A program made the position numbers and the translations under genes. Positions 8,327 to 27,214 of a stretch of 64,000 bases of DNA are shown one piece after another (position 1 is the first letter of the stretch; the number at the start of each line of letters is the position of its first letter). The notes below the pieces were generated by a model that was not told where the DNA came from, made no database searches, and saw only the letters and a program-made list of their open reading frames with translations. This DNA is from Citrifermentans bemidjiense Bem (GTDB taxonomy: Bacteria > Desulfobacterota > Desulfuromonadia > Geobacterales > Geobacteraceae). The DNA lies in contig NC_011146.1 in NCBI RefSeq assembly GCF_000020725.1, forward strand, positions 124,001-188,000, written 5' to 3'.

Positions 8327-8334
8327 TTTACCTG

Positions 8335-11772: not shown

Positions 11773-13934
11773 GCCCCTTGCGCCTGAGTTTCGTGAGGAA
11801 CCTGCCGCTGAAGCGCAAGCTGATGCTGATCATCATGCTCTGCTGCTGCGCCTCCCTTTTGGCGGCGTCCATATTCTTTCTCACCAGGGATGCCAAGGGG
11901 CTGTACCAGGTGCAGCGGGAAGACCTGGTCTCGCTGGCGGAAATCATCGGAGCCAACTCCGCCTCGGCCCTGGTCTTCGACGACCCGGAATCCGCGCAGC
12001 GGACCATCGCCCCGCTGGCGAGCAAGCGCTCCATCCTGGCCGTTTACGTATTGACCAGCGAAGGGCAGATCATGGCGCGCCACGTGGCGCCGGAGGCGGG
12101 AAACGCGGAGCTCCCGCTGGAGCGGCTGGGGTCCTCCCCCTCGCCGGCTGCCGTGCTCGCGGCCGTGGAGACCATCAGGAAAACGGCCGAAAAGAACAGC
12201 GCCGTCTCCGGTTTCGACTGCCTGGTGCAGCCGGTCTACTTCGACTACGAGCGGGTCGGCACCGTCGTCATCCATGCCGACACCGAGCTGTTCCGGAAAA
12301 ACCTGCGCTGGACCGCGACGGTCACCCTGCTTTTCATGCTGGTCACCGTCATCGCGGCCTATTTCTTCTCGGCCAAGCTGCAACAGATGATCTCCAGGCC
12401 GCTACTGGATCTTCTCTCCTCCATGAAGGACGTCTCCGCCAGCAAGAACTACGCGATAAGGGTGGCGAAGCCCTCGGACGACGAGATCGGGCTTCTCTAC
12501 GACGGCTTCAACGAGATGCTCTCCGAGATCGAGGAGCGCAACCAGATCCTCAGGCAGCGCCAGGCGCACCTGCAGCAGCTGGCGCACTACGATCCGCTGA
12601 CCCGGCTCCCCAACCGCACCCTGTTCTACGACCGGCTGGCCCAGGCGCTGTACCAGGCCGAGCGGAGCAGGCAGGCCCTGAGCGTGATCTTCATCGACCT
12701 GGACCATTTCAAGGACATCAACGACACCCTCGGGCACCGCACCGGGGATCTGTTGCTGATCGAGGTGGCCAGCCGGCTCTCCACCGTGGTGCGCAGCTGC
12801 GACACCGTGGCGCGGCTCGGGGGGGACGAGTTCACCATATTCACCCAGAACGTGGTGAACGCCGAGAACGCGGCCATCGTGGCGGCGAAGCTGAACGGGC
12901 TCTTCGCCAAGCCCTTCCATCTGGGCGAAAGCGAGATCTACGTCACGGCCAGCATCGGGGTGACCCTGTTCCCGCACGACGGCAAGACGGTGGACGAGCT
13001 GCTGATGAACGCGGACATCGCCATGTACCACGCGAAAGCCTGCGGCAAGAACGTCTACAAGATGTTCGACAGGAAGATGAACGAGCACGCGACCGAGAGG
13101 GTGACGCTGCTGTCGGACTTAAGGCTTGCGCTGGAGCGCGACGAATTCGTGCTGCACTACCAGCCCAAGGTGGACCTCCTCACCGGCAACGTGACCTCGG
13201 TGGAGGCCCTGGTGCGCTGGATGCACCCGAGGCTGGGGATGCTGGCGCCGGACAAGTTCATCCGGCTGAGCGAGGAGAGCGGGTTCATCGTGGAATTGAC
13301 CGACTGGGTGCTGCGCACCGCCTGCAGCCAGGCCAAGAAGTGGCAGGAGCAAAACCTGGGCTCGGTGCGGGTGGCGGTGAACCTCTCGCCCTACCATTTC
13401 CAGCGCCAGGACGTGAAGGAGGCGATCTTGTCGGTGCTGGAAGCGACGGGCCTTGAGCCGGCGCTCCTTGAGATAGAGATCACCGAGTCGGCGCTGATGC
13501 AAAACGACGAGTACACCTGTGCGCTGTTCCGGGAGCTGAGGGAACTCGGCATGACCATCTCGGTGGACGATTTCGGCACCGGCTATTCCTCCCTGAGCTA
13601 CCTGCACCGGTTCCCCATCAACACGCTGAAGATCGACCGGACCTTCATCCTGAACATGATGAAGAGCACCGAGGACCAGGCCATCGTCACGGCCATCATC
13701 GCCATGGCCAAGAGCCTCAACATGCAGATCGTAGCGGAGGGGGTGGAGACGGTGGACCAGTTGGAGAAGCTAAAGGATCAGGGTTGCCACGAGATCCAGG
13801 GCTTCCTGGTGTCGCGCCCGGTGGCCGCGGACGCGGTCACCGAGTTCTTCACGCCGGAAAACCACCTGCACCAGCACACCGACCCTGCGCAGCCGGAGCC
13901 TCCTCAAGGGGCATCGCCGGCAACACGCCCTTAG
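11769..13934 (+). CDS. membrane-bound GGDEF/EAL cyclic-di-GMP enzyme, YfiN-like sensor
   Basis: Domains in order: TM1 (residues 17-37), a periplasmic CHASE8-like region (40-175), TM2 (178-198), HAMP, GGDEF (about 275-440) and EAL (about 455-700). The GGDEF motif is intact with an inhibitory I-site (RSCD) five residues upstream. The EAL domain keeps EALVRW, NLSPYHF, ITES, DDFGTGYSS and AEGVET, so both synthesis and breakdown look possible. The front half matches YfiN, which ends after GGDEF; here an EAL domain is added. It overlaps the yfiR-like stop by 4 bases, so the two are coupled. Its 3' end overlaps the convergent ATPase gene by 86 bases. Confidence 0.95.
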   Translation: MSPLRLSFVRNLPLKRKLMLIIMLCCCASLLAASIFFLTRDAKGLYQVQREDLVSLAEIIGANSASALVFDDPESAQRTIAPLASKRSILAVYVLTSEGQIMARHVAPEAGNAELPLERLGSSPSPAAVLAAVETIRKTAEKNSAVSGFDCLVQPVYFDYERVGTVVIHADTELFRKNLRWTATVTLLFMLVTVIAAYFFSAKLQQMISRPLLDLLSSMKDVSASKNYAIRVAKPSDDEIGLLYDGFNEMLSEIEERNQILRQRQAHLQQLAHYDPLTRLPNRTLFYDRLAQALYQAERSRQALSVIFIDLDHFKDINDTLGHRTGDLLLIEVASRLSTVVRSCDTVARLGGDEFTIFTQNVVNAENAAIVAAKLNGLFAKPFHLGESEIYVTASIGVTLFPHDGKTVDELLMNADIAMYHAKACGKNVYKMFDRKMNEHATERVTLLSDLRLALERDEFVLHYQPKVDLLTGNVTSVEALVRWMHPRLGMLAPDKFIRLSEESGFIVELTDWVLRTACSQAKKWQEQNLGSVRVAVNLSPYHFQRQDVKEAILSVLEATGLEPALLEIEITESALMQNDEYTCALFRELRELGMTISVDDFGTGYSSLSYLHRFPINTLKIDRTFILNMMKSTEDQAIVTAIIAMAKSLNMQIVAEGVETVDQLEKLKDQGCHEIQGFLVSRPVAADAVTEFFTPENHLHQHTDPAQPEPPQGASPATRP

Positions 13935-16056
13935 GCTGCGGCGACGCCGTCTCCCGGCTTCGTGCCGGGAGGGCGGAGGGGGCGGGAAAGGCGCCGATGC
14001 GCAGGGAGTTTCCCAGCACGGTGAGGCTGGAGACCACCATGGCGACCGCGGCCAGAAGCGGATGGAGCAGGCCTGCAGCCGCCGCGGCCAGCGCCACCGC
14101 GTTGTAGGCGAAGCTTAAGGCGAGATTCCCGCGGATGATGTTCCCGGCGCGCCGGCTGAGCGCGATCAGCCAGGGAATTTGCGACAGCCGCCCCGACAGG
14201 ATCACCACGTTCCCCGCCACCTGGGCGAGCTCCATCCCGGTTCCGAGCGCGATCCCGGTCTGGGCCGCGGCGAGGGCGGGCGCGTCGTTTACCCCGTCCC
14301 CCACCATGGCCACCTTCCGCCCCTTGGCGATGTAGCCGGCGATGAGCTCCAGCTTGCGGTCCGGAGGGGAGGGGGCCTCGACCCGGCGGATCCCCAGCCG
14401 CTTGGCCGCCACCTGGGCCGAGGAAAAGCGGTCGCCCGAGAGGAGCACGCTCGTCAAACCCAACCGGTGCAGCGCGTCCAGGGAGCTTGCCGCATCGTCT
14501 TTGAGCGGATCGGCGAAATGAAGCCTCGCCCTGAGCCTCCCATCCCACCCCGCGAACACCACCGCACCCTCCCCCGGCAGATCCTCGCACCCCACATCGC
14601 CGTCGGCGCATGAGGCGTTTCCTGCCCACATCCTCGTCGCCACCCCTTTCCAGGTCACCGTGCCGCTGATGCCGCACCCAGCCGAGAGCTCGACCTGCGT
14701 TGCGGTGCCGGGGGCTGCGCCGCAGGCAGCCGCCGCGGCCTTGACCGCCGCCGCCAGCGGGTGCTCGCTTGCCGATTCCAGGGCGGCCAGCCTCCCCAGC
14801 AGTTCGGCGCGGGTCGTGAGCGGATCCAGCAGCTCCATCTCGCTCAGCACCGGGGTGCCGGAGGTGACGGTGCCGGTCTTGTCGAAGAAGACTGTACCAG
14901 TGCCGGCTATCCCCTCCATGACGCTGCCGCCGCGCACGACGATGCCGGCGCGCGCGGCACGGGCTACGGCCAGCGAGGTGGCAAGGGGGGTGGCTATCCC
15001 CATGGTGCAGGGGCAGGCGACCACCAGCACGGAAAGCGCACTCAGGAGCGCCTGGTCGGGAAGGCCCTTGAATGACCAGCAGATGAGCGCGCCGACGGAG
15101 ACCAGGAGCACCGCCGGCAGAAAAAGCATGGCCGCCTTCTGCGCCAGCCGCTCGCTCTGCGAAGGGGCGCGCCAGGCCTGCTGCACCATGTCGGCGATAC
15201 TGTGCAATAAAAGCTGCGACCCGGTCCGGTCGGCGCGCAACAGCAGGGTCCCCTGGCCGTTCACCGTGCCGGCTGTGACCGCGTCCCCTTTGCGGCAGAG
15301 CCTGGGGAGGAACTCGCCGGTGAAGGGTGCCTCCTCGATGCTGCTCGTCCCTTCCACCACGGTGCCGTCCACCGCCACTCGCTCGCCCGGCCGCACCCGC
15401 ACCAGGTCGCCCGGCTGCAGCGCGTCCAGCGCCACCTCGTCGGTCCCCTCCCCGGTCACCCGGAGCGCGGTCCGCGGCAGCAGCGTCTCCAGTGTTTCCA
15501 GGAGCTCGCTCGCCTTCCTTTTCACCGACGCCTCGATGAATTTTCCCAGGGTAACCAGCACCGGAAGCATGGTGGCGGTGTCGAAATAGACCTCTCCGGA
15601 GCCGACGACCGCGTTCACCGCGCTCAGGGAGAAGGCGGAGAGGGATCCGAGCGCGATGAGGAAGTCGAGGCAAAAGCGCCGCGACGAGATCTCGCGTAGC
15701 GCGCCGGAAAGAAACGGGGGGATCAGGATCAGCATGGCGGGGATGGAAAGCACGAGGAGTATGCGGCGGAACAGGGGGATCAGCTGCGTCTCCACGCTCC
15801 CGGCGTAGAGGAGCAGGGAAATCATCATCACGTTCATGGCCAGGAGCGCGCCGATGCCGAGCCGGAACAGGTGCCACCCCTGCTCCCCCTGCCGGTTTCC
15901 GACGATGGCGGAGACCAGCCTGCAGGCGTGGCAGCAGAAGATCTCCTGCCGGTCGAGAGTAGAGGGGGCTTTCCCAAGCGAGGGGGTTGCCACCGGGAGT
16001 CCGCAGTGCGCGCAAGAATAGTGCTCCATGGTGCTAGCGGCCGCTGTCGTAGGCAT
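13849..16056 (-). CDS. ccoI: copper-translocating P-type ATPase of the CcoI/FixI type
   Basis: The 735-residue protein has an N-terminal metal-binding region with CAHC (residues 15-18) and CCHAC (41-45), membrane helices, an ion-site CPC (VVACPCTMGIATPLA), the phosphorylation motif DKTGT, SEHPLA and the hinge GDGVNDAPALA. This is a P1B ATPase; the short N-terminus and its place in a cbb3 operon point to CcoI, which exports copper needed to assemble the oxidase. The ATG at 16056 follows GGAGGGGCG and overlaps the preceding gene by 23 bases. It is last in the operon. The Pro/Ala-rich C-terminal tail is encoded where the convergent GGDEF/EAL gene overlaps. Confidence 0.9.
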   Translation of the reverse strand: MPTTAAASTMEHYSCAHCGLPVATPSLGKAPSTLDRQEIFCCHACRLVSAIVGNRQGEQGWHLFRLGIGALLAMNVMMISLLLYAGSVETQLIPLFRRILLVLSIPAMLILIPPFLSGALREISSRRFCLDFLIALGSLSAFSLSAVNAVVGSGEVYFDTATMLPVLVTLGKFIEASVKRKASELLETLETLLPRTALRVTGEGTDEVALDALQPGDLVRVRPGERVAVDGTVVEGTSSIEEAPFTGEFLPRLCRKGDAVTAGTVNGQGTLLLRADRTGSQLLLHSIADMVQQAWRAPSQSERLAQKAAMLFLPAVLLVSVGALICWSFKGLPDQALLSALSVLVVACPCTMGIATPLATSLAVARAARAGIVVRGGSVMEGIAGTGTVFFDKTGTVTSGTPVLSEMELLDPLTTRAELLGRLAALESASEHPLAAAVKAAAAACGAAPGTATQVELSAGCGISGTVTWKGVATRMWAGNASCADGDVGCEDLPGEGAVVFAGWDGRLRARLHFADPLKDDAASSLDALHRLGLTSVLLSGDRFSSAQVAAKRLGIRRVEAPSPPDRKLELIAGYIAKGRKVAMVGDGVNDAPALAAAQTGIALGTGMELAQVAGNVVILSGRLSQIPWLIALSRRAGNIIRGNLALSFAYNAVALAAAAAGLLHPLLAAVAMVVSSLTVLGNSLRIGAFPAPSALPARSRETASPQPKGVLPAMPLEEAPAAQGRCAGAGGFPA

Positions 16057-16813
16057 CGCCCCTCCAGGCGCCGGTCGCGGAATGAGCGCTGGCGCTGATT
16101 ATCTGCGGCCCGGGGGTGGGGGGGCAGCCGAGGAGCCTGTGGTAGAAGGCGGATCCCCGGAGGGCGGTTCCCAGGGCGAAGAGGAGCAGGACGGCGCCGC
16201 CGGCCCGTGCCCCCCAGGCGCGCAGGTGCCATCGGGTGAGCCGCGCCGCGCTCCCCAGTACGAGAAGCGGCAGCGAGGTCCCGGCCGCCAGTGCGGCCAT
16301 GGTGGCGAGGCCGGAGAGGACGGAGCCGGTCTGCAGGGAATAGGCGAGGAAAGCGACGACGATGGGGCAGGGAAGAAAGCCGGTGACGATCCCCATGGTG
16401 AGGGCGGAGCCGGGAGAGGAATCGGTGCAAAGCCTGGCCGCCAGCGCGGAAAGAGTCGAGGAAAACATCCCCCGGTTCGCCTCCCCCCGCAAGGGAAGCA
16501 GGCCCAGAAGGCTCGCCCCCATGAGGAACATGACTGCCGCCGCCGCGTAGCTCAACAGGTTTTGCCACAGGCCGTGGCGCAGCAGCAGGAGCTGGAAATA
16601 GCCGCCGGTGAAACCGGCGACCGCGCCCAGGAAGAGATAGCTGCTGAGCCTGCCGGCCTGCCACAGGAACTGCCCTGTCAGCATGTCCTGGCGCTCCTTT
16701 TCCCGTGACAGGTGCAGCACGAACCCGCCGCACATGCCGACGCAGTGGGCGCAGGCGACGAGCCCGCCGGCGAATCCGATCCAGAGATGGTGAGTGAGGC
16801 CTTCAATTTCCAA
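16034..16813 (-). CDS. SafE/UreH-like (DsbD_2) membrane protein, probable oxidase assembly factor
   Basis: A polytopic membrane protein of about 259 residues with six or so TM segments and the motif ACAHCVGMCGGF in the first helix, typical of the sulfite exporter TauE/SafE-UreH-like family that often lies beside ccoI. The cysteines may take part in copper or thiol handling (inference). I chose TTG at 16813 because GGGGAGGAGG precedes it by five bases; a TTG 33 bases upstream lacks such a site. The gene sits between a cytochrome c gene and ccoI. Confidence 0.85.
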   Translation of the reverse strand: MEIEGLTHHLWIGFAGGLVACAHCVGMCGGFVLHLSREKERQDMLTGQFLWQAGRLSSYLFLGAVAGFTGGYFQLLLLRHGLWQNLLSYAAAAVMFLMGASLLGLLPLRGEANRGMFSSTLSALAARLCTDSSPGSALTMGIVTGFLPCPIVVAFLAYSLQTGSVLSGLATMAALAAGTSLPLLVLGSAARLTRWHLRAWGARAGGAVLLLFALGTALRGSAFYHRLLGCPPTPGPQIISASAHSATGAWRGDAYDSGR

Positions 16814-16900
16814 GATTCCCTCCTCCCCTAGCAGGGGAAAAATCAACTCGCCGCACGGGCGAGGGTGGCCAAAGGCCGGGTGAACGGTTGTGCAGAAGAG

Positions 16901-17401
16901 CTAACGGGCTCGGGCGAGGGAGCGAACGAAAAGGGCCAGGTGAAAGCGCTGCTCCGGGGGAACCACCCGCTCCAGCACCGGCTCGTGCCCCGCCCCGGTG
17001 AGCATGGCCCGAAGCAGCTCCCCGTCGCTGTATCCCACTACTTTCGCTCTCCTCAGGTCGGCGGGTGCCGGGATGTAGCTGTGCCCGACCGGCCCGTCTC
17101 CAGCGCCCCCCTCCCCATGGCAGAAGAGGCAGTAGTAGCCGTAGTAGATCCCGCCGCGTTCCAGGTTCTGCGGATTGGCGGGGAGCGGGTTTTTTACCAG
17201 CGCCAAAGCGGCGCCGGCGGGAATGCGTGAGGCGTCCGGTTGCGCGCTCACGGTGCCGGGAGGCGGCGGCGGGAGAACCGTCTGGAACTCGCGGAAGTGG
17301 TGCTGCACGGTCATCCTGGGCCCCTTGACCAGGAGATAGCCGAAGACGACGGTGAAGATGAGCGGGGGGACCACGATTATCAGCGCGATCAACTTCTTCA
17401 T
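16901..17401 (-). CDS. membrane-anchored monoheme cytochrome c, possible ActE counterpart
   Basis: An N-terminal TM segment (residues 4-24) leads into a Pro-rich linker and a periplasmic cytochrome c domain with one CxxCH (CLFCH) in GGIYYGYYCLFCHGEGGAGDG; a possible distal Met is in RAMLTG. At 166 aa it could pass electrons from alternative complex III to the oxidase. No other ActE-like monoheme subunit is present in the act genes, so it may fill that role (inference). Its ATG overlaps the upstream stop by 4 bases (ATGA). Confidence 0.88.
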   Translation of the reverse strand: MKKLIALIIVVPPLIFTVVFGYLLVKGPRMTVQHHFREFQTVLPPPPPGTVSAQPDASRIPAGAALALVKNPLPANPQNLERGGIYYGYYCLFCHGEGGAGDGPVGHSYIPAPADLRRAKVVGYSDGELLRAMLTGAGHEPVLERVVPPEQRFHLALFVRSLARAR

Positions 17402-17682
17402 TTGCGCGCCCCCTTGGGGACGACGACCGGCAGCGGCATCGCCTCAGGGAGCGGCGCTATCTGCCGCCTGGGCAGCCGCTGCTTCTCGGGGGTAGTGCTG
17501 GAATAGATCGATTCAGCCGGCGCGTCCGGGAGCTGCCCGAAGTCCCAGAACCGCGGTGCATCGGCGACAAGCAGGTAGACAATCCAGCCGAAGACCATGA
17601 TCGTGGCGCTGAAGACCGTGAGGATGATCCATTCCCACGGGGAGGGTAGTTCCTGCTTCTCGTCGTATCGGGGAGTTTCCAT
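17398..17682 (-). CDS. single-TM small membrane protein of the oxidase operon
   Basis: The product (about 94 aa) starts METPRYDEKQELPSPWEWII, has one TM segment (residues 17-40) and a Pro-rich periplasmic tail with RFWDFGQLPDAPAESIYSS. No heme motif or catalytic residue is visible. Its position between CcoS/membrane genes and a cytochrome c suggests a structural or assembly role. The ATG at 17682 is preceded by GGTGAGG; a GTG at 17694 that overlaps the upstream stop is an alternative. Family not recognised. Confidence 0.75.
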   Translation of the reverse strand: METPRYDEKQELPSPWEWIILTVFSATIMVFGWIVYLLVADAPRFWDFGQLPDAPAESIYSSTTPEKQRLPRRQIAPLPEAMPLPVVVPKGARK

Positions 17683-17690
17683 GAGTCGCC

Positions 17691-17969
17691 TCACCAGTTG
17701 GGCGGAATCGCGTGGTTTCGGGTTATTTCTAATATGGTGAAGGCCAGGCTCGCCAGGATGAGCAGAATGACGGTCCAGGGGACGAAGCTTTTAATCCAGG
17801 CGATAAAGCTGCGCAGGTCCTTGACCTTGATCCTTTCGCTCTCCGTCTCCGTGCCGCGCGGGACCCAAAGTGCCTGGTAGGTGAGGCACATAAGGAGCGT
17901 GAGGATGGCGCCTCCCAAAAGGGACAAGACGATCCACTGGTTCTGCAGCACGTACAGGTAGAGCATCAT
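17691..17969 (-). CDS. two-TM small membrane protein of the oxidase operon
   Basis: A 92-residue protein with TM segments at about residues 10-32 and 63-83, joined by a charged loop (VPRGTETESERIKVKDLRSF). It has no cysteines that could bind heme. GGAGGGAACTGCC precedes the first ATG. The gene is tightly packed between ccoS and the single-TM gene. It may be an accessory subunit of the oxidase; I do not recognise the family. Confidence 0.75.
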   Translation of the reverse strand: MMLYLYVLQNQWIVLSLLGGAILTLLMCLTYQALWVPRGTETESERIKVKDLRSFIAWIKSFVPWTVILLILASLAFTILEITRNHAIPPNW

Positions 17970-17986
17970 GGCAGTTCCCTCCGCCT

Positions 17987-18214
17987 TTACCCCTCTTCCG
18001 GCCTTGTCTGCTTCCCTTTTGCCTGCGGCGCGGTTTCAGTTGGCGGCTCCAGGTCAGGGATCGCCGCATCCAATGCCAGGTAACGCGCGCGCTCCTGGTT
18101 GGAGAACTGCCCGGCGCGTATGGCCCAGAGGAAAAGTGTGCCGAGTGCGGTGCTCATCAGCAGCAGAAAGCCGATCCACAAAAACAGGAATGCGTTTCCT
18201 TCCATCGGGTTCAC
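17987..18214 (-). CDS. ccoS: cbb3-type cytochrome oxidase assembly protein CcoS
   Basis: A 75-residue protein with one TM segment followed by LFLWAIRAGQFSNQERARYL, the CcoS signature (W-A-x-x-x-G-Q-F). CcoS is needed for cofactor insertion into the cbb3 oxidase. The start is GTG at 18214, seven bases after AAAGGAG; an in-frame ATG lies three codons later. A GC-rich hairpin repeat separates it from the upstream ccoO-like gene. Confidence 0.88.
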   Translation of the reverse strand: MNPMEGNAFLFLWIGFLLLMSTALGTLFLWAIRAGQFSNQERARYLALDAAIPDLEPPTETAPQAKGKQTRPEEG

Positions 18215-18238
18215 TTGCAGCTCCTTTCCCCAAGGTTT

Positions 18239-18263
18239 CCCCCTCCCCTTGCGGGAGGGGGGG
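18239..18263. repeat. GC-rich hairpin repeat, copy in the oxidase operon
   Basis: CCCCCTCCC (18239-18247) pairs with GGGAGGGGG (18253-18261). Nearly the same sequence (CCCCCTCC-N-CTTGC-GGGAGGGGG) occurs at 42051-42073. It occupies the only sizeable gap (about 110 bases) inside the operon, between ccoO and ccoS. Confidence 0.65.
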
Positions 18264-18328
18264 CTTCGATCTCTCGCCCTTCACGGAGAGAAGACTTGCG
18301 GTGATTTCACAATCGGGCTCCCCCGCAA

Positions 18329-19348
18329 TCACGGCACCGGCGCCGGAGGCGCCACGGGCAGTTCCGGCCGTTCCCTTCCCGGAGGGGGATAGCTGTTCTC
18401 CCACGCCCCCTCGAAGGAGGCGTCGATGCCGCGGGGTTCGGTGTTGGCGTCGGTGTACCCCACGAAGGAGACGCCCAAATAGTTCGCCAGATCCCAGATC
18501 TTCTCGCTCTCCAGGTGCTTCTTGAAGTAGGGCATGGCGGTCCCGGTAATCCCGTTCATGATCTGGTAGTAGAAGATCCCCCCGATGTACCTGTTCTCGA
18601 CCACGTGCCGGCGCAGGGTGGTGAAGTTCAGCGGCGGCGGGCTCAGAAAGGGCATCGCCGGGCCGTTGCCGTCGCCGACCGGCGAGTGGCAGTTGACGCA
18701 GAGCTGCTGGTAGATCCGCTTCCCCCGCTGCAGCGCGGCTTCCGTTGCCGGGTAGGGGTTAGGCATGCGTCGCCAGACCTCGGGGACCTGCGCGTGCAGC
18801 CACTCGATGTTGCGGTCGAACCCGCCGCTGTAGGCCTCCACCGCCTGCTTTTTCCACTCCCTCTGCCGCGCCTGGCGCAGGTCCGCATGCTTTCCCCCCT
18901 GCGATTGGACGTAGGCGGTCAAGGCCGTTATCTCGCCCTCGGTCAGAAAATCCCACGAGGGCATGAGCGAAATGGGACTGGTGAAGCGGGGGTTGGTGAA
19001 ATGGGCGATGTTCCAGTCGTCGCTGTGCTCCCCCCCCTCCTGCGAGAGGTCCGGGCCGGTTCTCTCTGAGCCAAGGATGGCGGGCTCGACGCCGACATAG
19101 TCGCCCGCCTTGGCGATCCGCTCGGCGCCTATGTCCCAGTCGTTCACCCTGATGAAGAGGGAATGGCAGTAGCTGCAGCCGTTTTTGACGTAGAGCCTGT
19201 GGCCGGCCTTTTCCAGCGGGGTGAGCGGGCGCCAGATCTCGGAAGGGGTTTCCTTCATGGTGAGGGAAGGTATCCCGACGATGATGAAGGCGGAGGCCCA
19301 GAAGACCATCAGCGCACCGACGATGAGGACGGCAGGGGTCATCTTCAT
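18329..19348 (-). CDS. CcoO-like diheme cytochrome c subunit of a cbb3-type oxidase
   Basis: The N-terminal TM segment (residues 5-27) is followed by a CcoO-type domain (PLTPLEKAGHRLYVKNGCSY with CxxCH; later LMPSWDFLTEGEITALTAYV) and a second cytochrome c domain (ALQRGKRIYQQLCVNCHSPV, CxxCH; TAMPYFKKHL). Classical CcoO is monoheme and about 200 residues, so this 339-residue protein looks like a CcoO with an extra CcoP-like heme domain fused on. No separate ccoP is present. The ATG overlaps the ccoN stop (ATGA). It should feed electrons to CcoN. Confidence 0.9.
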   Translation of the reverse strand: MKMTPAVLIVGALMVFWASAFIIVGIPSLTMKETPSEIWRPLTPLEKAGHRLYVKNGCSYCHSLFIRVNDWDIGAERIAKAGDYVGVEPAILGSERTGPDLSQEGGEHSDDWNIAHFTNPRFTSPISLMPSWDFLTEGEITALTAYVQSQGGKHADLRQARQREWKKQAVEAYSGGFDRNIEWLHAQVPEVWRRMPNPYPATEAALQRGKRIYQQLCVNCHSPVGDGNGPAMPFLSPPPLNFTTLRRHVVENRYIGGIFYYQIMNGITGTAMPYFKKHLESEKIWDLANYLGVSFVGYTDANTEPRGIDASFEGAWENSYPPPGRERPELPVAPPAPVP

Positions 19349-20736
19349 GCCGCATCCTCCGCGCGCTGAAGCTGCGCCCCCTCTTGCTCCTCGCCGCGGC
19401 GTAAGGACATGAGCAGGTTGTAGAGCCCGACCAGCGAGGCGGTGAAAATGAAGACCCCGAGGGCTGCGCGCGACGCCATGAAGGGGACCAGTTGGGGTAG
19501 CACCCGGAGCACGGTCTCCCCGTTGTGCCAGGCGGTCCCCTGCACCAGCCCCGCCGCGGTCAGCACCAGGAAAAACCCGGTGAGGCCGAAGGTGACCAGG
19601 CCGAACTGCAGCGAGACCAGCTTCTTCGAGTAGAGCTCGCGCCCGGTGATGAGGGGGACGATGTGCCACATCGCCCCGAGAGCTATGTAGCCGCCGAAGC
19701 CGAGCATGGCGATGTGGGCGTGCCCTACGGTCCAGTTGTTGAAGTGGGTCACCCGCTGCAGGAAGGGGAGCGACTGCAAGGGCCCCTGGATGCAGGTGAC
19801 GATGTACCAGACGACACCCCCCATGACGAGCCTGGCCGCCGGGTCTCCCCAGATGCGCCGCCCGAAGTTGCGGGCCGTCATCCAGAGGTTGATGACGACG
19901 ATGGAGACGGGGAGGACCATGGCGATGGAGTCCACAACGGAGACGGTCTTAAGCCAGTTGGGGATGGGGGACTGCAGCACGTGGTGCCCCCCAATGTGCG
20001 AGTAGAGCGCGATCAAGAGCCAGAAGCCCAATAGCGACAGGGTGTGCGAGTTGAGCGGGGTCCTCGCCACCCGGGGAATGACGAAGTAGGCGGCCCCGGT
20101 GGCAAGCGGGGTGATCAGGAGCCCGGGGAGGTTGTGCCCCCAGAACCAGAGGAAGATGGAGTCGATCAGCCCCGGCATGGCCCCGGTCGCCGGGTGCCAC
20201 ATCACGTTCCCCAGAGGGTAGTTGCTGGCGGTCCAGAGGAAGGTGGCCATGAAGTACCAGATCGAGACGTAGATCTGATCTTCCTGGCGGTTGGCGATGG
20301 TGAGCGCGCTGTTGACGATGAGGCAGACCACGGCGATCACCAGCGAGACGTCGGCGAGCCAGACGTACTCGTTGTACTCGCGCCCCTGGGTGATCCCGAA
20401 GGCGAACCCCACGGGGCCGCTCAGGACGGTCAGGTTCCAGAAGAAGAAGGCGGCCCAGGCGAGCGGCTCGGACCAAAGCCGGGTCCGCAACAGGGCCGGG
20501 AGGTAGTACAGGCCGCTCCCCACCAGCATGGGCCCGACGAAGCCGTAGAGCATGGTGTTGACGTGGACCGGCCGCTCGCGCCCGAAGACCAGCGCGCCCA
20601 CGTGCGGCAGGAACTCGGGGGCGACCAGGTGTATGGCGGACATGAAGCCGTAGACGGCGCCGACGACGAACCAGACCGAACCGGCCACCATGAAGGCGAG
20701 AGCTGCGCTTTGCGGTTTGGATGCGAATTTGAACAT
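19345..20736 (-). CDS. ccoN: cbb3-type cytochrome c oxidase subunit I
   Basis: The 463-residue, about 12-TM protein is a heme-copper oxidase catalytic subunit. PVHVNTMLYGFVGPMLVGSG holds an early heme-binding His, YSHIGGHHVLQSPIPNWLK holds the copper-site histidines, and HFNNWTVGHAHIAMLGFGGY holds the C-terminal histidines. It reduces oxygen to water at the binuclear centre with high affinity (family property). AGAGGAGCC precedes the start. It follows actA directly and overlaps the ccoO-like gene, so oxidase and alternative complex III are made together. Confidence 0.95.
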   Translation of the reverse strand: MFKFASKPQSAALAFMVAGSVWFVVGAVYGFMSAIHLVAPEFLPHVGALVFGRERPVHVNTMLYGFVGPMLVGSGLYYLPALLRTRLWSEPLAWAAFFFWNLTVLSGPVGFAFGITQGREYNEYVWLADVSLVIAVVCLIVNSALTIANRQEDQIYVSIWYFMATFLWTASNYPLGNVMWHPATGAMPGLIDSIFLWFWGHNLPGLLITPLATGAAYFVIPRVARTPLNSHTLSLLGFWLLIALYSHIGGHHVLQSPIPNWLKTVSVVDSIAMVLPVSIVVINLWMTARNFGRRIWGDPAARLVMGGVVWYIVTCIQGPLQSLPFLQRVTHFNNWTVGHAHIAMLGFGGYIALGAMWHIVPLITGRELYSKKLVSLQFGLVTFGLTGFFLVLTAAGLVQGTAWHNGETVLRVLPQLVPFMASRAALGVFIFTASLVGLYNLLMSLRRGEEQEGAQLQRAEDAA

Positions 20737-20769
20737 GCTTTGCCTGGCTCCTCTCTTCCCGAGATGGGA

Positions 20770-21321
20770 CTACCTGTGGCAAGTGAAGCAGTCGTGCGTC
20801 GCGCGGTTGTAGCGGTGGCACTGGATGCAGAAACCCATCTGGAATTTGCGCGCTTTCGAGACCCGGTCCATCCGGGAGACGTCCCCGTGGCAGTGGCCGC
20901 AGTCGATGCCGCGCTGGATGTGCATGGAGTGGTCGAAGTAGACGAACTCGGGGAGCCAGTTCACCCGCGCCCAGATCACCGGCTGGTTCGACGCCGCCAG
21001 AGCCCGCAGCTTGGCGATGTAGGGGTAGGTCCTGATGATGCGCGAGTGGCAGAGGAGGCAGGTCTGAAGCGGCGGTATCCCCGCGCGCGACGAGCGGTGA
21101 GCCTCGCTGTGGCACATGAAGCAGCTGATCTTTTTCACCCCGGCGTGCACCCGGTGGCTGAAGGGGATCGGCTGGCGCGGCCCCAGCCCGACCGGGTAGA
21201 GCTGGTCCAGGTAGACGAGGGTCGCGAGGAAGGAGAGGAGCACCACGCAAGCCGCGGCCACCGCCGCCCAAAGGGGCGTCTTCCATTTCTTCATGTTCTT
21301 GTCTTCGGAGGCCGGGCTCAT
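20770..21321 (-). CDS. actA: pentaheme cytochrome c subunit of alternative complex III (ActA)
   Basis: The 183-residue protein has an N-terminal membrane anchor (residues 15-37) and five CxxCH motifs (CFMCH, CLLCH, CGHCH, CIQCH, CFTCH), with extra histidines such as FDHSMH as axial ligands. This is the heme layout of ActA, which receives electrons from the FeS clusters of ActB on the periplasmic side. In known act operons actA is usually first; here it comes after actF and before ccoN. Its ATG overlaps the actF stop. Confidence 0.9.
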   Translation of the reverse strand: MSPASEDKNMKKWKTPLWAAVAAACVVLLSFLATLVYLDQLYPVGLGPRQPIPFSHRVHAGVKKISCFMCHSEAHRSSRAGIPPLQTCLLCHSRIIRTYPYIAKLRALAASNQPVIWARVNWLPEFVYFDHSMHIQRGIDCGHCHGDVSRMDRVSKARKFQMGFCIQCHRYNRATHDCFTCHR

Positions 21322-22394
21322 GGCTTATCCCCGTCCGCCGCATCCGGCGGCAGGTGGCGAGGGCTGATCAGCATCCCCAGCCCGAGGAGCCCGGTGCACC
21401 CGAGGGCGAGCGAGAGCTCGCTCAGGCCGAGCCTTGCCAGCGGATCGAAGGTCGGCGCCACCAGCCACCAGCGCTCCAGCCACATCCCGGCCACGACCAG
21501 GAGGGCTACCGCGCCCAGCGTCCAGCGGTTTTCCTTGAAGCGGGCGGGAAGGAGCAGCACCAGCGGCCCGAAATAGACGGTGCAAAGGAGCGCGACGCTC
21601 ACCGGGGACCAGTTTTCGTTGTGCATGCGCGGCACCAGGAACCGGATCTCCGGGGGGAGGTTCTCGTACCAGAAGGGGAGCAGATGCGCATACATGAGGT
21701 AGGTGGTCATCAGGCTGAAGGCGAGCACCAGGTTTCCCAGGTCGTGCAGCTGCTTGGGCTTCGCCCCCCCCTTCAGGCAGGCGATGAGGGCCCAGGCGCT
21801 GATGCCGATGTAGAGCCCGGACATGAAGAAGTAGCCGCCGGCCAGGTTGCTGCGAAAGTGTGGGTCGAGCGCCATCACCAGGTCGAAGCCTAAGAGGGAG
21901 AAGACCAGGGAGTAGACCACCAGCAGGATGCTTCCCGAGCGCCTACCGCTTCCCCGGCGCCGCCTGGCCAGATGAAAGGCGGCCCAGCCCCAGAACAACA
22001 GGAGCGCCGCCAGGTCCCGCCCGAAGAGGAAGCTGTTGTTCAGCCACATCCCCTGGTGGAAGTTCACCCGGTACCAGGGCGCCCAGGCGCCGCTCCCCCC
22101 CCAGAGGAGGGCGAGGGCGAGGAGGGAGGGGAGGGCGAAGGCTATGGCGGCGCTGGCGTAGCGCTCCACTCCCTGCTGCCATTTTCCGTTGCAGGTCCTT
22201 ACCAGCGCCGGCCAGACCACGAGCCCGGCGGAAAGCGAGCTGAAGAAGAGGAAGTTGACCAGGAGCGAGCGCCAGGCCCGCGCGGGGTCCTCCCCCCTAA
22301 GCAGGACCGCCCAGAGCGCGATCCCGGCGACGGCGGCCACCCCCCAGGCGACGCCCCAGCTCTTCGAGCTATGTCCGCGGTCACTTGTGGACAT
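21318..22394 (-). CDS. actF: alternative complex III membrane subunit ActF
   Basis: A 358-residue protein with about ten TM helices. Features include NFLFFSSLSAGLVVWPAL, WYRVNFHQGMWLNNSFLFGR, SLLGFDLVMALDPHFRSN, GGYFFMSGLYIGISAWALIA and YLMYAHLLPFWYENLPPE, matching the ActF membrane subunit of quinol:cytochrome c oxidoreductases. It is a structural membrane partner of ActC. Its start overlaps the end of the ActCD fusion gene by 14 bases and its stop overlaps actA. Confidence 0.9.
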   Translation of the reverse strand: MSTSDRGHSSKSWGVAWGVAAVAGIALWAVLLRGEDPARAWRSLLVNFLFFSSLSAGLVVWPALVRTCNGKWQQGVERYASAAIAFALPSLLALALLWGGSGAWAPWYRVNFHQGMWLNNSFLFGRDLAALLLFWGWAAFHLARRRRGSGRRSGSILLVVYSLVFSLLGFDLVMALDPHFRSNLAGGYFFMSGLYIGISAWALIACLKGGAKPKQLHDLGNLVLAFSLMTTYLMYAHLLPFWYENLPPEIRFLVPRMHNENWSPVSVALLCTVYFGPLVLLLPARFKENRWTLGAVALLVVAGMWLERWWLVAPTFDPLARLGLSELSLALGCTGLLGLGMLISPRHLPPDAADGDKP

Positions 22395-24255
22395 GGATTT
22401 CCTCCGGGAGGGACGGGGCCAGCAGCTCTTTCAGCCGGTCCACCTCGCCCGCCTTGCAGCTCACCAGAAGGCCGAAGCGGTCGCGGCTGAAGCGGGGGTC
22501 GTAATAGGGGGCGGTCTCGAACCGGAACAGGCGGGAAAAAAGGGCGAGCCCCAGGAGATTGGCGAGGCATCCCAGGAGGATGGTCCCTTCGAAGGCGACC
22601 ACGCAGAAGGGGACCCAGGAGAGGGGCGGCTTACCACCCACTATGAGCCGGTTCACCAGCGCGGTACCGCCGGCGAGCCAGAAGCCGCCGACAAGGCCGC
22701 TCACGGCGCCCCCCAGGGTGAAGAGGCGGACCGGGCTATGGCGCTTTTTGAGCACGTGGTCGAGCGCTTCGATCTTCACCGGCGAGAAGCTCTCCATCAC
22801 CTGGAACCCTCCGTCGCAGGAAAGCTTCGCCGCCTCCACCAGGCGCCCGGCATTGGAGAAGAGCGCCAAGACGCTCGGCCTTTGGGTGGCGATCCTCTCC
22901 CGCACCCGGCTGTCGCAGCTCCCCACCGGCTTGATCTCCTCGTCGGCCACCTTCTCCTTCAGCTCGCTCAGAGGGACCGTGGGGAGCGTCTTGGTGAAGC
23001 CCAGGAAGAAGAGTAAGAAGAAGCCGAAGGAGCTGGCGGTGATCATGAGTTCGACCCAACTGGGCGCATAGCCGCCGAAGTTGTGCGGCAGGAAGTCGTG
23101 CGCCTGCGAGGTGTAGATGATCATCAGCCTCTCGAACCACATCCCCAGGTTGATGAGGAGCGAGATGACGAAGAGGGGGACGAGGCTTGTGCGCATCTTC
23201 TTGAAGAGGAAGAGCCAGGGGACGAAGACGTTGCAGACGACGCAGAGCCAGTACATCCATGCCGGGGGGCCGAAGGCGCGCCAGAGGTGGTTCTGCCACT
23301 CGATGGGGTCCTCGCCGTACCAGGCGATGAAGGCCTCGACGGCGTAGGCGTAGCCGACGATGGTCGCGGTGAGGATGATGGTCTTCGCCAGCATCTCGAA
23401 GTGGCGCATTTCGATCAGGCGCTCCAGGCGCAGGTATCTGCGCATCGGGATCAGCAGGGTGATCACCATGGCGAGCCCCGAGTGGATGGCGCCAGCGACG
23501 AAGTAGGGGGGGAAGATGGCGCTGTGCCACCCGGGGAGGAGGCCCATGGCGAAGTCCCAGGAAACGACCGAGTGCACCGAGACCACGAGCGGCGTGGCAA
23601 AGGCGGCGAAGAAGAGGTAGGAGCGCCCGTAATGGTGCCACTGGCTCCCGGTGCCGGACCAGCCCAGCGACAGCGCGCGGTAGAGCCGGGTGCGCCAGTG
23701 CCTGGGGCCCAGCTGTTCCTGGTGCAGGTCGCGCGCCGCGGCAAGGTCGGGGATCATGCCGACGAACCAGAATATGGAGCTCACCGTGAGGTAGGTGGTG
23801 ACGGCAAGGACGTCCCAGACCAGGGGGCTCACGAAGTTGGGCCAGATCTGGCGCTGCGAGGGGTAGGGGACGATGTAGTAGGCGGCCCAAAGCCTCCCCA
23901 GGTGGATGAGCGGGAAGAGCCCCGCGGTCAGGACCGCGAAGATGGTCATCGCCTCGGCGGAGCGCGAGACGGCGTCGCGCCAGTCGGCGCGCATCAGGTA
24001 GAGGATGGCGGAGATCAGGGTCCCGGAGTGGGCGATCCCGACCCAGAAGACGAAGTTGGTGATGTAGACGGCCCAGCCGACGGGGCGGTTCAGCCCGGTC
24101 ACCCCCATCCCCGCCTGGGTCTGGTACATGAAGGTGAGCGCCGCGAGCCCGACCACCCCCGCGAGCGCGGCGGCGGTGAGGAAATAGGGGAGCGTCGGCT
24201 TCTTCAGCGCGCGCAGGACGTCGTCGTTTATCTCGCCGTAGCCTAAGTCAGCCAA
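22381..24255 (-). CDS. ActC-ActD fusion: NrfD/PsrC-type quinol-binding subunit joined to a DUF3341 subunit
   Basis: Residues 1 to about 435 are an NrfD/PsrC-like protein with about ten TM helices (PVGWAVYITNFVFWVGIAHS, PYPSQRQIWPNFVSPLVWDV, WYGEDPIEWQNHLWRAFGPP), the quinol-oxidising subunit ActC. Residues about 450-624 form an ActD/DUF3341 unit with a soluble start (LVEAAKLSCDGGFQVMESFS), two TM segments and the closing APYYDPRFSRDRFGLLVSCK. The two are separate genes in Rhodothermus and Chloroflexus; here they are one frame with no stop. The start overlaps actB by 8 bases. Confidence 0.92.
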   Translation of the reverse strand: MADLGYGEINDDVLRALKKPTLPYFLTAAALAGVVGLAALTFMYQTQAGMGVTGLNRPVGWAVYITNFVFWVGIAHSGTLISAILYLMRADWRDAVSRSAEAMTIFAVLTAGLFPLIHLGRLWAAYYIVPYPSQRQIWPNFVSPLVWDVLAVTTYLTVSSIFWFVGMIPDLAAARDLHQEQLGPRHWRTRLYRALSLGWSGTGSQWHHYGRSYLFFAAFATPLVVSVHSVVSWDFAMGLLPGWHSAIFPPYFVAGAIHSGLAMVITLLIPMRRYLRLERLIEMRHFEMLAKTIILTATIVGYAYAVEAFIAWYGEDPIEWQNHLWRAFGPPAWMYWLCVVCNVFVPWLFLFKKMRTSLVPLFVISLLINLGMWFERLMIIYTSQAHDFLPHNFGGYAPSWVELMITASSFGFFLLFFLGFTKTLPTVPLSELKEKVADEEIKPVGSCDSRVRERIATQRPSVLALFSNAGRLVEAAKLSCDGGFQVMESFSPVKIEALDHVLKKRHSPVRLFTLGGAVSGLVGGFWLAGGTALVNRLIVGGKPPLSWVPFCVVAFEGTILLGCLANLLGLALFSRLFRFETAPYYDPRFSRDRFGLLVSCKAGEVDRLKELLAPSLPEEIHVHK

Positions 24256-27148
24256 GCTCCACCTCCACCCTGCGCAGGAAGGTCACTGCAGGTTTGGTGT
24301 GCAGCTCGTGCAGCAGCTGGTAGCGCCGCGGCTCGGTCGCGGCGAGCCTGGAGACGCGCGAGTTGGGGTCCAGCAGGTCGCCGAAGGTGAAGACGCCGGT
24401 AGGGCAGGTCTGGGCGCAGGCGGGGACGACCTCCCCATCCTGAAGCTGCCGCCTCTCCCGCGAGGCGCGGTACTCCGCCTGGCGGATGCGCTGCACGCAG
24501 AAGGTGCATTTCTCCATGACGCCGCGCGTCCTGACCGTGACCTCGGGGTTCAGCTGCAGGTCGAGAGGCTTGCGCCATTCCACGTTGAGCCAGTTGAAGC
24601 GGCGCACCTTATAGGGGCAGTTGTTGGAACAGTAGCGGGTGCCGATGCAGCGGTTGTAGATCTGGGCGTTCAGCCCTTCTTCGTTGTGGACCGCGGCGAA
24701 GACCGGGCAGACCGGCTCGCAGGGGGCGGCGTCGCAGTGCTGGCAGTGCAGTGGGAGCCAGGCGTAACGAAGCCGGTCCCCGGGCATCCGGTAGGGGGGG
24801 ACCCTGAGCCAGGCCATCTCGCGCCCACCCCTGACCAGCTCCTTGCCGATCACCGGGATGTTGTTCTCGGCGTAGCAGGCGACGGCGCAGGCCCCGCAGC
24901 CGATGCAGCGCTGCAGGTCGATAGCCATCCCCCAACGGTGCTTCTTGTGCTCGTGCGCCGGGTACATGTCTTCCTCCGGGCGGTGCCCCTTGGAGAGGGG
25001 AAGGTCGAGGCGGTCCCCCTCCCCCGGCTTCATGACTCGCAGCTCCGACACCGGCACCGCCTGCAGCAGCTCGCGATGCAGCTGGTTGCGGGTCGGGGCG
25101 GTGGCGGTCATGCGGTCGCCGGCGCCGCCGGGGACCTTGGCGATGCGGCAGGGGGCGAAGGTCGAGCCACTGTTCACCCCCCCAAGGAGCAAGAAGGCGT
25201 TGGCCCCGATTCCCTTGGCGTTTTTTCCCAGCGCCGTGTGCCCCTGTCCCAGCCCTACGGCCACCGTCTGCAGGCCGACCTCCTCGGTGATCCGGGCGGG
25301 GGCGCGCAGGGAGCCGGTGGCAGTGGAGATCTGGACCATCTCCCCCTCCTCTATGCCGAGTGCTTCGGCCTGGCGGGGGTTCATGTCCACCCAGTTCCCC
25401 CAGACCACAAAGGAGACCGGGTCGGGCGCTTCCTGGAGCCAGCCGCGGTTGGCGAGGCGGCCGTCGTAGAGCATGATGGAAGGCCAGGCCCAGAGCTCGG
25501 CCTGGTCGGGCTTGGGAAGTGGCGTCACCCCCGCCGCCGCGAAGCGGAGCCCGCCCTTTGCCTGCAGCGCGGGTTGCGCAGCCGGGGACTTCGGGCGGGT
25601 ACTCCAGTCCCCCCCCGTTCTGAGGGCCCCGGCCCAGGCTGCTTCCCCCCCCGGAGCGCTCCACCCGGCTTTGAGCCAGGAGGCGAAGTCGGCGGGGGGC
25701 TCGGCGCTCCCCTTGCGGGAAAGGGGGCGCCGAGCCAGACCGGCCATCTTGAGGAAGAGATCCCCCGCGCTGCGGGTGTCGTGGATGCGTCCCATTCCGG
25801 GTTGCATCAGGCCGCGGACCCCCGGTTCGGGTTCATATTCCCCCCACGACTCCAGCGGGGAATCGATGGGGAGGACCCAGTCGGCCATTTGCGCCGTCTC
25901 GTCCGGCATGGTTCCCAGGTAGACCACGGTCCCGGCGCGGCGCAGTTGCGCGGCCGCTCCGTTTCGGCTGTAGGCGGGATTGGTGTCGTGCACGAACAGG
26001 ACGTCGTTGGCTCCGAGCGATCCGAGCAGGGCGGCAAGTTCCGCTTCGCGCGCGGTGCGGCTCAAGGCGTGCGGGCGGGAAAAATCCACGGTCTTCCCGA
26101 CGGCTCCGACGGCGTAGTTTAAAAGCGCTACGCAAAGCGCCGTGTCGGACGCCACAGCTCCCTTGGCAGCCGAGGGGCCGGCGAGCGCCAGCGGGGCACG
26201 GGCGTTGGCGAACGCCTGCGCCACCTGCAAGAGCGTCGCCTCGGGTATGGCGGGAACCTGACCCGCTCCCTTCAGCATGCCGTCGAGCGCCCCCCTGAAC
26301 GGGGTGAGGTCGTTTTTCTGCCAGCCGCGCTCGATGACGAGCTTCAATAGCGTCGCGGCCACCAGCCGTTCCTGCCCGGGAGGGACCTGGATGAAGCTGT
26401 CGGCGTTGGAGGCGGTCATGGAAAGCCTGGGCCCGACGTAGACCATGCGGTTCTGCGCCTCGTCCTGCCGGAAGCCGTGCATGTCGGCGAACTGGCGCGC
26501 GTAGGAAACCGGCGACACCCAGGTTTCCAGGAAGTCGGCGGCGAAGCTCAGGATGTAGTCGCTATTTTCCAGGTCGTGGTGCGGCACCACCGGCAGGCCG
26601 AAGAGCTCTTGGTGCGCGGCCCGCATCGGTTCGTAGTTGAACGCTTCGTGGAAGAGGAGTTTTCCGCGGAAAGCGGAGGCGAAGCCGGTCATCACCTCGG
26701 CCAGCGCGCCAGTCTGGAGGCTGGAAAGGATGACGGCGCGCCCGCCGGAGATAAGGCGCGTGGAGATGGCGGAGAGGGCGTCCTGCCAGTTGCTCGGCCT
26801 GGAGGCGCCGCCGCTGCGGTAAAGGACTTGCCGGAGGCGGTCCGGGTCGTAGAGCCCTTGCGGCGCCGACTGCCCCCGCGGGCAGAGGGCGCCCCGGTTC
26901 ACCGGATGCGCCGGATTCCCCTCCGCCTTGGTCACCCTCCCGTCGCGGTGGGAGAGGTGCATGCCGCACCCCGCCGGGCATTCGCGGCAGGTTGTGGCGA
27001 AGACGGTCCAGGAACCCGGACGGATGTTCTCCGGGGGAATCACCTTGGGGATCAGCTTGTTGACCAGCTTTCGCGGCGGCTCGGTGACCAGCGCGATGCT
27101 GCTCCCTCCGGTCACCCACAAAAAGGTCCGTCTAGACATATCTGACAT
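24248..27148 (-). CDS. actB: alternative complex III FeS/molybdopterin-like subunit ActB
   Basis: The protein (about 966 aa) starts with a twin-arginine signal (SRRTFLWV). An N-terminal molybdopterin oxidoreductase-like domain follows, with CRECPAGCGMHL and CPRGQS, then a C-terminal ferredoxin-like domain with CIGCGACAVACYAENN, CQHCDAAPCEPVCPV, CIGTRYCSNNCPYK and CTFCVQR...CAQTCPTG. This is the ActB fusion that carries several FeS clusters but in characterised complexes no molybdenum. It relays electrons from the quinol site to ActA. I prefer the ATG at 27148 because it places the RR motif at residues 6-7; an in-frame start 30 bases upstream is possible. First gene of the operon. Confidence 0.93.
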   Translation of the reverse strand: MSDMSRRTFLWVTGGSSIALVTEPPRKLVNKLIPKVIPPENIRPGSWTVFATTCRECPAGCGMHLSHRDGRVTKAEGNPAHPVNRGALCPRGQSAPQGLYDPDRLRQVLYRSGGASRPSNWQDALSAISTRLISGGRAVILSSLQTGALAEVMTGFASAFRGKLLFHEAFNYEPMRAAHQELFGLPVVPHHDLENSDYILSFAADFLETWVSPVSYARQFADMHGFRQDEAQNRMVYVGPRLSMTASNADSFIQVPPGQERLVAATLLKLVIERGWQKNDLTPFRGALDGMLKGAGQVPAIPEATLLQVAQAFANARAPLALAGPSAAKGAVASDTALCVALLNYAVGAVGKTVDFSRPHALSRTAREAELAALLGSLGANDVLFVHDTNPAYSRNGAAAQLRRAGTVVYLGTMPDETAQMADWVLPIDSPLESWGEYEPEPGVRGLMQPGMGRIHDTRSAGDLFLKMAGLARRPLSRKGSAEPPADFASWLKAGWSAPGGEAAWAGALRTGGDWSTRPKSPAAQPALQAKGGLRFAAAGVTPLPKPDQAELWAWPSIMLYDGRLANRGWLQEAPDPVSFVVWGNWVDMNPRQAEALGIEEGEMVQISTATGSLRAPARITEEVGLQTVAVGLGQGHTALGKNAKGIGANAFLLLGGVNSGSTFAPCRIAKVPGGAGDRMTATAPTRNQLHRELLQAVPVSELRVMKPGEGDRLDLPLSKGHRPEEDMYPAHEHKKHRWGMAIDLQRCIGCGACAVACYAENNIPVIGKELVRGGREMAWLRVPPYRMPGDRLRYAWLPLHCQHCDAAPCEPVCPVFAAVHNEEGLNAQIYNRCIGTRYCSNNCPYKVRRFNWLNVEWRKPLDLQLNPEVTVRTRGVMEKCTFCVQRIRQAEYRASRERRQLQDGEVVPACAQTCPTGVFTFGDLLDPNSRVSRLAATEPRRYQLLHELHTKPAVTFLRRVEVELG

Positions 27149-27214
27149 GGTGCAACCCCGTGATCCAAACAAATCCATAGCAGCAGCTTCAATAAAAGAG
27201 ATATTAAGTAAAAG

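Follow-up and report, generated by a model that had tools for sequence, protein, structure and literature searches.

Does a compact set of quinol-oxidizing and oxygen-reducing genes in a member of the Geobacteraceae encode one respiratory machine, or two systems that merely lie side by side? The question is raised by a 64,000-nucleotide stretch of the Citrifermentans bemidjiense Bem genome (NC_011146.1, positions 124,001 to 188,000), which we call the window and in which positions are counted from the first letter. An initial annotation, made from the sequence alone, had described genes for an alternative complex III (ACIII) and a cbb3 oxidase, together with the maturation factors CcoS and CcoI, on the minus strand between positions 13849 and 27148. 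We conclude, with a probability of roughly 0.7, that this cluster encodes one functional menaquinol:O2 oxidoreductase, which would combine an ACIII-like complex with a divergent heme-copper oxidase of the C-family. Many other bacteria have the same set of genes, which makes a single machine passed on by inheritance look more plausible than a chance neighbourhood. Citations by PMC number refer throughout to excerpts of the papers concerned.

Organization of the cluster

The cluster consists of twelve tightly packed genes, all on the minus strand, and its limits proved to be exactly those first given, from the ATG of actB at 27148 to the end of ccoI at 13849. The genes are listed in Table 1 in the order in which they would be read.

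Table 1. Genes of the act-cco cluster (window positions)
Gene	Position	Strand	Product	Features
actB	24248..27148	-	ACIII-like ActB	B1 molybdopterin-like domain with FS0 Cys, then ferredoxin-like B2 domain
actC-actD	22381..24255	-	NrfD-type menaquinol-binding subunit fused to ActD	TTG start; H118/D148
actF	21318..22394	-	Short divergent membrane subunit	
actA	20770..21321	-	Membrane-anchored cytochrome	Five CxxCH
ccoN	19345..20736	-	CcoN-like catalytic subunit, C-family heme-copper oxidase	H58, H201, Y245, H251, H252, H339, H341
ccoO	18329..19348	-	CcoO-like, with second cytochrome c domain	2 CxxCH, M129, M272
ccoS	17987..18214	-	Oxidase assembly protein	GTG start; PF03597 1.4e-4, TIGR00847 1.6e-4
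tm1	17691..17969	-	92-aa protein	Two predicted membrane segments, no heme motif
tm2	17398..17694	-	98-aa single-span protein, no known family	Conserved WxFGxxPDxPxxSxYS-like motif
cytE	16901..17401	-	ActE-like membrane-anchored monoheme cytochrome c	6f0k_E E 5.1e-9, 6lod_E 6.3e-8
safE	16034..16846	-	DsbD_2-type membrane protein, probable assembly factor	TTG start; hairpin precedes
ccoI	13849..16056	-	Cu-transporting P-type ATPase, oxidase maturation	Above copper P-type ATPase model cut-off

Overlaps of 4 bases join actF to actA, ccoN to ccoO and tm2 to cytE, as had been noticed earlier for the first two pairs and for the monoheme cytochrome gene, and also tm1 to tm2; longer overlaps were found between actB and actC-actD (8 bases), actC-actD and actF (14 bases) and safE and ccoI (23 bases). 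The widest gap, between ccoO and ccoS, is 114 bases. From the sequence, a single transcript of all twelve genes is likely. A terminator-like hairpin at 16863-16847, between cytE and safE, raises the possibility that safE-ccoI is a separate unit; such sites number 13 in the segment 13500-27600, against a mean of 7.3 in shuffled sequence, and one of them lies between these two genes. Downstream, a convergent gene for a GGDEF/EAL protein overlaps the end of ccoI.

A promoter scan of 13500-27600 found no sigma-70-like site, and the segment 27149-27319, to the 5' side of actB, contains no FNR-type box (the window as a whole has 23 matches at two mismatches or fewer). We also observed, by eye, a TTGACA...TTGATA-like element in the upstream regions of several Geobacterales, and an imperfect palindrome of 22 bases at about 27215-27236, 5' of actB, that is present in Citrifermentans bremense (L117) as well and was not seen in the remaining upstream regions compared.

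Conservation of the act-cco linkage

We scanned genome contigs with a profile of the CcoO alignment, which gave 183 relatives, and kept the best 80, on which the counts of loci in this report rest. Many of these are contigs of metagenome-assembled genomes (MAGs), the taxon names of which may be wrong. The best 80 included 15 Geobacterales, 45 other deltaproteobacterial records, 7 Armatimonadota, 4 Planctomycetota, 4 Bacteroidota and one each from Ignavibacteriae, Hydrogenedentes and SAR324; Desulfosarcina widdelii, Desulforhabdus sp. TSK and Desulfoferrobacter suflitae are isolates among the 45. The cluster thus spans several phyla, and the earlier view of it as a peculiarity of Geobacter does not stand.

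A complete act set, counted as non-overlapping matches, was present upstream of the oxidase genes in 56 of the 59 loci with at least 8.3 kb of upstream sequence, and on these grounds we rejected a chance neighbourhood; co-occurrence in related genomes, which the initial annotation had put forward as a check, is thereby borne out. The exceptions are L119, which carries a deletion, L143, and L179, in which a run of N at 5256-5356 directly precedes actC. At least one act gene was seen in 76 of the 80 loci, and in the remaining four the ccoN match begins no more than 146 bases from the contig end. To the other side, ccoS, tm2 and cytE occur together in 67 of the 68 loci with at least 2.4 kb of downstream sequence.

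Among 58 near relatives sampled, 18 of 19 members of the genus (the window's genome included; G009 is the exception) and six other members of the order have close homologues (at least 73% identity). Across 395 genomes of the phylum, homologues at 45-50% identity occurred in 20 genomes besides the window's own, and act genes adjoin all 20 as far as the contigs reach. Next below came a single homologue at 39% (G147), without act genes within 19 kb, and then canonical CcoN at no more than 32%. The G147 protein is a 932-residue frame with CcoN- and CcoO-like parts (L112, 7564-10362, minus strand; the 39% refers to window CcoN); it is possibly a relative of the ancestor of the clade, with a placement made unsure by its long branch.

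Quick trees were made for CcoN (27 chosen loci, the window and 21 other rows, with no row from the qNOR locus L005) and for ActC (36 chosen loci, the window and 36 control rows). The CcoN proteins of act-cco loci formed one clade of 28 rows (support by the Shimodaira-Hasegawa-like approximate likelihood ratio test, SH-aLRT, 99), apart from the 13 rows of canonical cbb3 oxidases (SH-aLRT 100). The 37 cco-linked ActC rows likewise fell into one group (SH-aLRT 87), joined by a single outsider, L246, the contig of which ends inside actA. In both trees, the Bacteroidota loci L135 and L136, Hydrogenedentes and Planctomycetota were nearer to the Geobacterales than were the Desulfosarcina-type rows, a pattern consistent with the unit having passed between phyla as a whole, subject to the naming of MAGs. 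Also, distances among Act proteins and among Cco proteins were correlated in each of six protein pairs (Mantel r 0.77-0.92, with 0 of 999 permutations as high; ActC-CcoN 0.91, ActB-CcoN 0.92), as measured over the 55 of 80 loci with five genes at full length. Judged from these genomes, the act-cco linkage is old and widespread.

The ACIII-like part

The presence of ACIII-type genes, as first proposed, was confirmed by matches to solved ACIII chains for ActB (E 2.5e-119), ActC (3.9e-125), ActA (7e-35) and ActF (7.9e-14), and by a match to Pfam ActD (6.2e-39). A set of A, B, C, D and F is therefore present by homology to solved chains or to Pfam; an ActE-like protein is recognized by weaker and less specific similarity. 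The predicted model of ActB had a mean pLDDT (predicted local distance difference test score) of 80, with much of residues 802-883, in the B2 domain, below 50, and a Foldseek search with it returned solved ACIII ActB chains as the top five matches, followed by the arsenate reductase Arr. The N-terminus of ActB carries what we take to be a signal like that of the twin-arginine (Tat) pathway.

ActC residues H118 and D148 align with H139 and D169 of the Rhodothermus marinus protein, of which we take His139 to be a quinol-site residue. Asp169 is described as one (PMC5928083). With the window counted, H118 is kept in all 68 ungapped rows and D148 in 68 of 69, the other being an X. ActA has five CxxCH motifs, as do 31 of its 73 full-length relatives, while the other 42 have four. 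In the Geobacterales loci examined actC and actD are fused; elsewhere the two usually appeared as separate matches, a result not taken gene by gene.

One feature sets this ActB apart from solved forms. The cysteines of the FS0 [4Fe-4S] motif (C54, C57, C61 and C89) are retained in the window protein, and the motif was found in 57 of 57 cco-linked ActB proteins of at least 850 aa (7 of 64 rows were left out as short), whereas the solved ActB proteins of Chloroflexus aurantiacus and Roseiflexus castenholzii are without it. The corresponding domain of R. marinus ActB is described as empty (PMC5928083). With the FS0 motif present, the B1 domain does not show the lack of a prosthetic group seen in the solved complexes, and because of this motif we call the complex ACIII-like, a sister of the solved form. 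No cysteine occurs at positions 171-175 of the window protein, presumably the place of a molybdenum ligand.

We compared these proteins with a control of 38 stretches around other ActD matches, a selection of those matches, of which 34 show a B1 domain. The FS0 motif was present in 30 of the 34, so that we rejected the proposal that it is unique to the cco-linked clade; one of the 30, L246, is the outsider that groups with that clade by ActC. The four without the motif (L236-L239) have the highest ActD scores and an adjoining aa3-type oxidase gene. Five other control loci, which adjoin an A-family oxidase gene of a second kind, keep the motif; oxidase labels in the control loci refer to similarity to the genome's own CoxA.

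Several related clusters came to light in this comparison. Another type of ACIII-like cluster, in which actB is split into B1 and B2 and the FS0 motif is retained, was seen in the genus and family (L268-L272); no oxidase gene was found in those stretches with the profiles used. At five loci (L252, L254, L261, L263 and L264) an ACIII-like cluster is separated by a few kb from the gene for a divergent heme-copper protein; this protein groups far from CcoN, together with the COX1 homologue encoded at 1.44 Mb in the genome of the window. Within the window itself, a second match to Pfam ActD (PF11821), barely above the cut-off, falls on a stand-alone glycine-rich protein at 52895-53458 (plus strand); there are no act genes near it, and counterparts occur in most sampled genomes of the genus.

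The oxidase part

Window CcoN matched cbb3 chains with E-values of 1.5e-53 (6xkw_n) and 4e-53 (3mk7_A), and CcoO matched CcoO/FixO at 2.7e-30. The initial annotation had named loss of conserved quinol or heme ligands as a result that would speak against it; on alignment these ligands are kept. The CcoN ligands H58, H201, H251, H252, H339 and H341 and the helix-VII tyrosine Y245 were found without exception in the 78 rows aligned, that of the window among them; all of the ligands except H58 also passed a stricter filter against 13 canonical rows, and H58 is His in the 12 rows shown. The low-spin heme His pair, CuB triad, b3 His and helix-VII Tyr of a C-family heme-copper oxygen reductase are thus all in place. 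CcoO, with a FixO domain, a CxxCH and Met pair and an extra cytochrome c domain, has the marks of a c-type heme subunit, and its ligands were kept in 80 of 80 rows including the window's. We rejected a degraded or non-catalytic oxidase because the ligands are kept. A candidate peculiarity, the second heme of CcoO, was also dropped, as the genome's canonical CcoO likewise has two CxxCH motifs.

The cbb3 label assigned earlier holds to the extent that the oxidase is cbb3-like and of the C-family, but it is not canonical. The genome also encodes a canonical CcoN, in a cluster elsewhere with open reading frames that we interpret as ccoN, O, Q, P, G, H, I and S; window CcoN shares only about 29% identity with this protein. 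In the cluster described here there is no heme-bearing CcoP, for which reason we do not file its oxidase as canonical cbb3, and none of CcoQ, CcoG or CcoH was found among the genes read. Both maturation factors named at the outset found support, CcoI above its model cut-off and CcoS with scores below the curated cut-offs of both models in Table 1. The neighbouring DsbD_2-type protein is one that we take to be SafE-like.

The genes tm1 and tm2 sit where CcoP would be. FixP_N, the Pfam family of the CcoP membrane anchor, was matched by 4 of 11 members of the tm1 family (best 4.9e-8), and tm1 would be a remnant of CcoP, its membrane anchor. The ActE-like gene, cytE, is separated from the act genes by the cco genes, so that the two gene sets are interleaved.

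Proposed electron path and alternative readings

In the proposed path, menaquinol would be oxidized at the ActC site (H118/D148), and electrons would pass through the FeS clusters of ActB to the hemes of ActA, and from these to the monoheme ActE-like cytochrome, to the fused cytochrome domain of CcoO, or to both. The CcoO heme would then pass them to the low-spin heme b and this, in turn, to the heme b3-CuB site (H201/H251/H252, Y245), at which O2 would be reduced to water. Because the heme part of CcoP is absent, entry would be from ActA, ActE or CcoO and not from a diffusible cytochrome by way of CcoP; direct hand-over from the ACIII-like part is for this reason the simplest reading, and the interleaved position of cytE fits it. 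A tight ACIII-oxidase assembly is most likely the form taken. At oxic-anoxic borders such an enzyme would probably serve to respire O2 with high affinity and to remove it.

Several observations weigh against a single machine of this kind. Co-inheritance alone does not prove a physical complex, and plain vertical descent would also yield the agreement found in the Mantel tests. In the window the terminator-like hairpin precedes safE-ccoI, and ccoI was seen in 43 of 80 loci and safE in 22 of 80. In L143, from an armatimonadote, actF is missing from its place between actD and actA. Window tm1 by itself gives no FixP_N match, and solved ActE is a poorer match to cytE than are the soluble c552 cytochromes. 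Furthermore, additional heme-copper oxidases are encoded elsewhere in the genome, and the role of complex III could fall to a cytochrome b/multiheme cytochrome locus within it. Finally, in Geomonas propionica Red259 (L119, about 7446-10001, and at the same place in L030) a deletion joins ActC at about residue 413 to CcoN residue 4, in frame, as an 883-residue fusion; actB, actD, actF and actA are lost from the locus, and ccoN, ccoO, ccoS, tm1, tm2 and cytE remain. Either the oxidase part is able to survive the loss of ACIII, or this locus is in decay.

The Geomonas propionica locus and the c552-like character of cytE both favour a looser arrangement, in which the ACIII-like complex and the oxidase are co-expressed, separate and joined, in the manner of ordinary respiratory chains, by diffusible periplasmic cytochromes, in which the Geobacteraceae are rich. 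We consider such neighbours by function unlikely, since the cluster has no heme-bearing CcoP to accept a cytochrome of this kind, cytE is interleaved beyond the cco genes, the linkage is kept in 56 of 59 loci and the Act and Cco proteins diverge in parallel. It is far less probable that the oxidase is mainly a nitric oxide (NO) reductase and the cluster one for NO detoxification or denitrification. The C-family oxidases are those nearest to NO reductases and can reduce NO, and many hosts of act-cco loci belong to groups known as anaerobes. Yet loss of the helix-VII tyrosine marks the NO reductases of the heme-copper superfamily, and Y245 is invariant along with the three CuB histidines (78 of 78 rows), so that we set this identity aside; the cluster also contains a Cu ATPase and CcoS. 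Moreover, a separate quinol-oxidizing NO reductase, norZ, is reported for the genome (PMC2996986).

There is a further, still more remote reading, in which the act part would run in reverse, as a menaquinone reductase like the Qrc complex of sulfate reducers, and would lie beside the oxidase by accident. It draws on the fact that the best NCBIfam models for ActB and ActA are Qrc models, albeit with scores below the cut-offs, and it is opposed by the far better match of ActB and ActC to solved ACIII than to other solved chains, as well as by the width and age of the oxidase linkage. To our knowledge Qrc is without ActD and ActF, both present here, and we know of no linkage of Qrc to an oxidase. 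We accordingly retain as our preferred reading a single menaquinol:O2 oxidoreductase.

Comparison with known systems

The ACIII supercomplexes with caa3/aa3 oxidases of R. marinus and Flavobacterium johnsoniae resemble the window's system in having homologues of ActA, B, C, D and F and in the quinol-site residues of ActC. They differ from it in an A-family oxidase where the window has a C-family one; the window further has the ActC-ActD fusion, and its ActE-like gene stands apart from the other act genes, past those for the oxidase. The act cluster of R. marinus is also followed by genes for its oxidase (PMC5928083). Act genes also lie beside the oxidase genes in Melioribacter roseus (PMC5492636) and in proteobacterial a-I operons (PMC6431628), the oxidases of which are of the A2 type and so, again, of the A-family. 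Canonical cbb3 oxidases (CcoNOQP; Pseudomonas stutzeri, 3mk7) share with the window the CcoN ligands, the helix-VII tyrosine, the CcoO fold, CcoS and CcoI; in contrast, window CcoN is in a separate clade, and tm1 and tm2 stand in place of a heme-bearing CcoP.

Parts of this picture are in print. The 2010 paper on this genome lists a caa3 oxidase, two cbb3 operons, two bd oxidases and norZ, and one of the cbb3 operons is a two-gene one, Gbem_0121-Gbem_0120 (PMC2996986), which, to judge from position and gene number, is most likely the window's ccoN-ccoO pair. In the main text of that paper neither 'complex III' nor 'molybdopterin' occurs. That oxygen respiration in a supposed anaerobe is notable, as the initial annotation had held, needs qualification to the extent that the species' genes for it, most likely including this pair, were reported then. 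An ACIII cluster without ActE is recorded for Geobacter sp. M21, with citation of an earlier survey (PMC8552683); ACIII-like clusters and ActB evolution are treated in PMC9386147 and PMC10100899; and NrfD/actD clusters in MAGs of Planctomycetota and KSB1 have been assigned another role (PMC10732223). ACIII has been described with A-family oxidases (PMC5928083, PMC5492636, PMC6431628), and we found no published description of a pairing between an ACIII-like complex and a C-family oxidase in the literature covered, to which the original surveys by Refojo and colleagues do not belong. The cluster is a real, conserved variant of the ACIII-oxidase pairing, the separate pieces of which are partly in print already.

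A broader proposal, to which we give even odds, is that these oxidases form an unnamed C-family subfamily that is almost always the terminal part of an ACIII-like complex, together an obligate menaquinol:O2 'respirasome'. CcoP would here be a bare, heme-less anchor because ActA and ActE feed CcoO directly, and the whole would have moved as a unit, including horizontally, among several phyla, with many hosts from anaerobic groups. A conserved pairing of an ACIII-like complex with a C-family oxidase would show that quinol-oxidizing modules can be combined with the oxidase type noted for its high affinity for O2. It could account for the ability of some iron and sulfate reducers to use trace O2 in respiration or to clear it, and would provide a compact system in which to study electron transfer from ACIII to an oxidase. 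It also suggests that the ActE reported as missing from the Geobacter sp. M21 cluster, in a strain outside our sample, may sit beyond the cco genes. That ACIII-like ActB proteins not belonging to the solved group carry an FS0 motif is relevant to how ACIII arose from molybdoenzymes.

Neighbouring genes

Upstream of the cluster, the nearest gene is a divergent one for a polyphosphate kinase 2 (PPK2), at 27320-28213 on the plus strand. Near it, at 28612-31227 on the minus strand, lies a gene for a LigD-type multidomain DNA ligase/primase.

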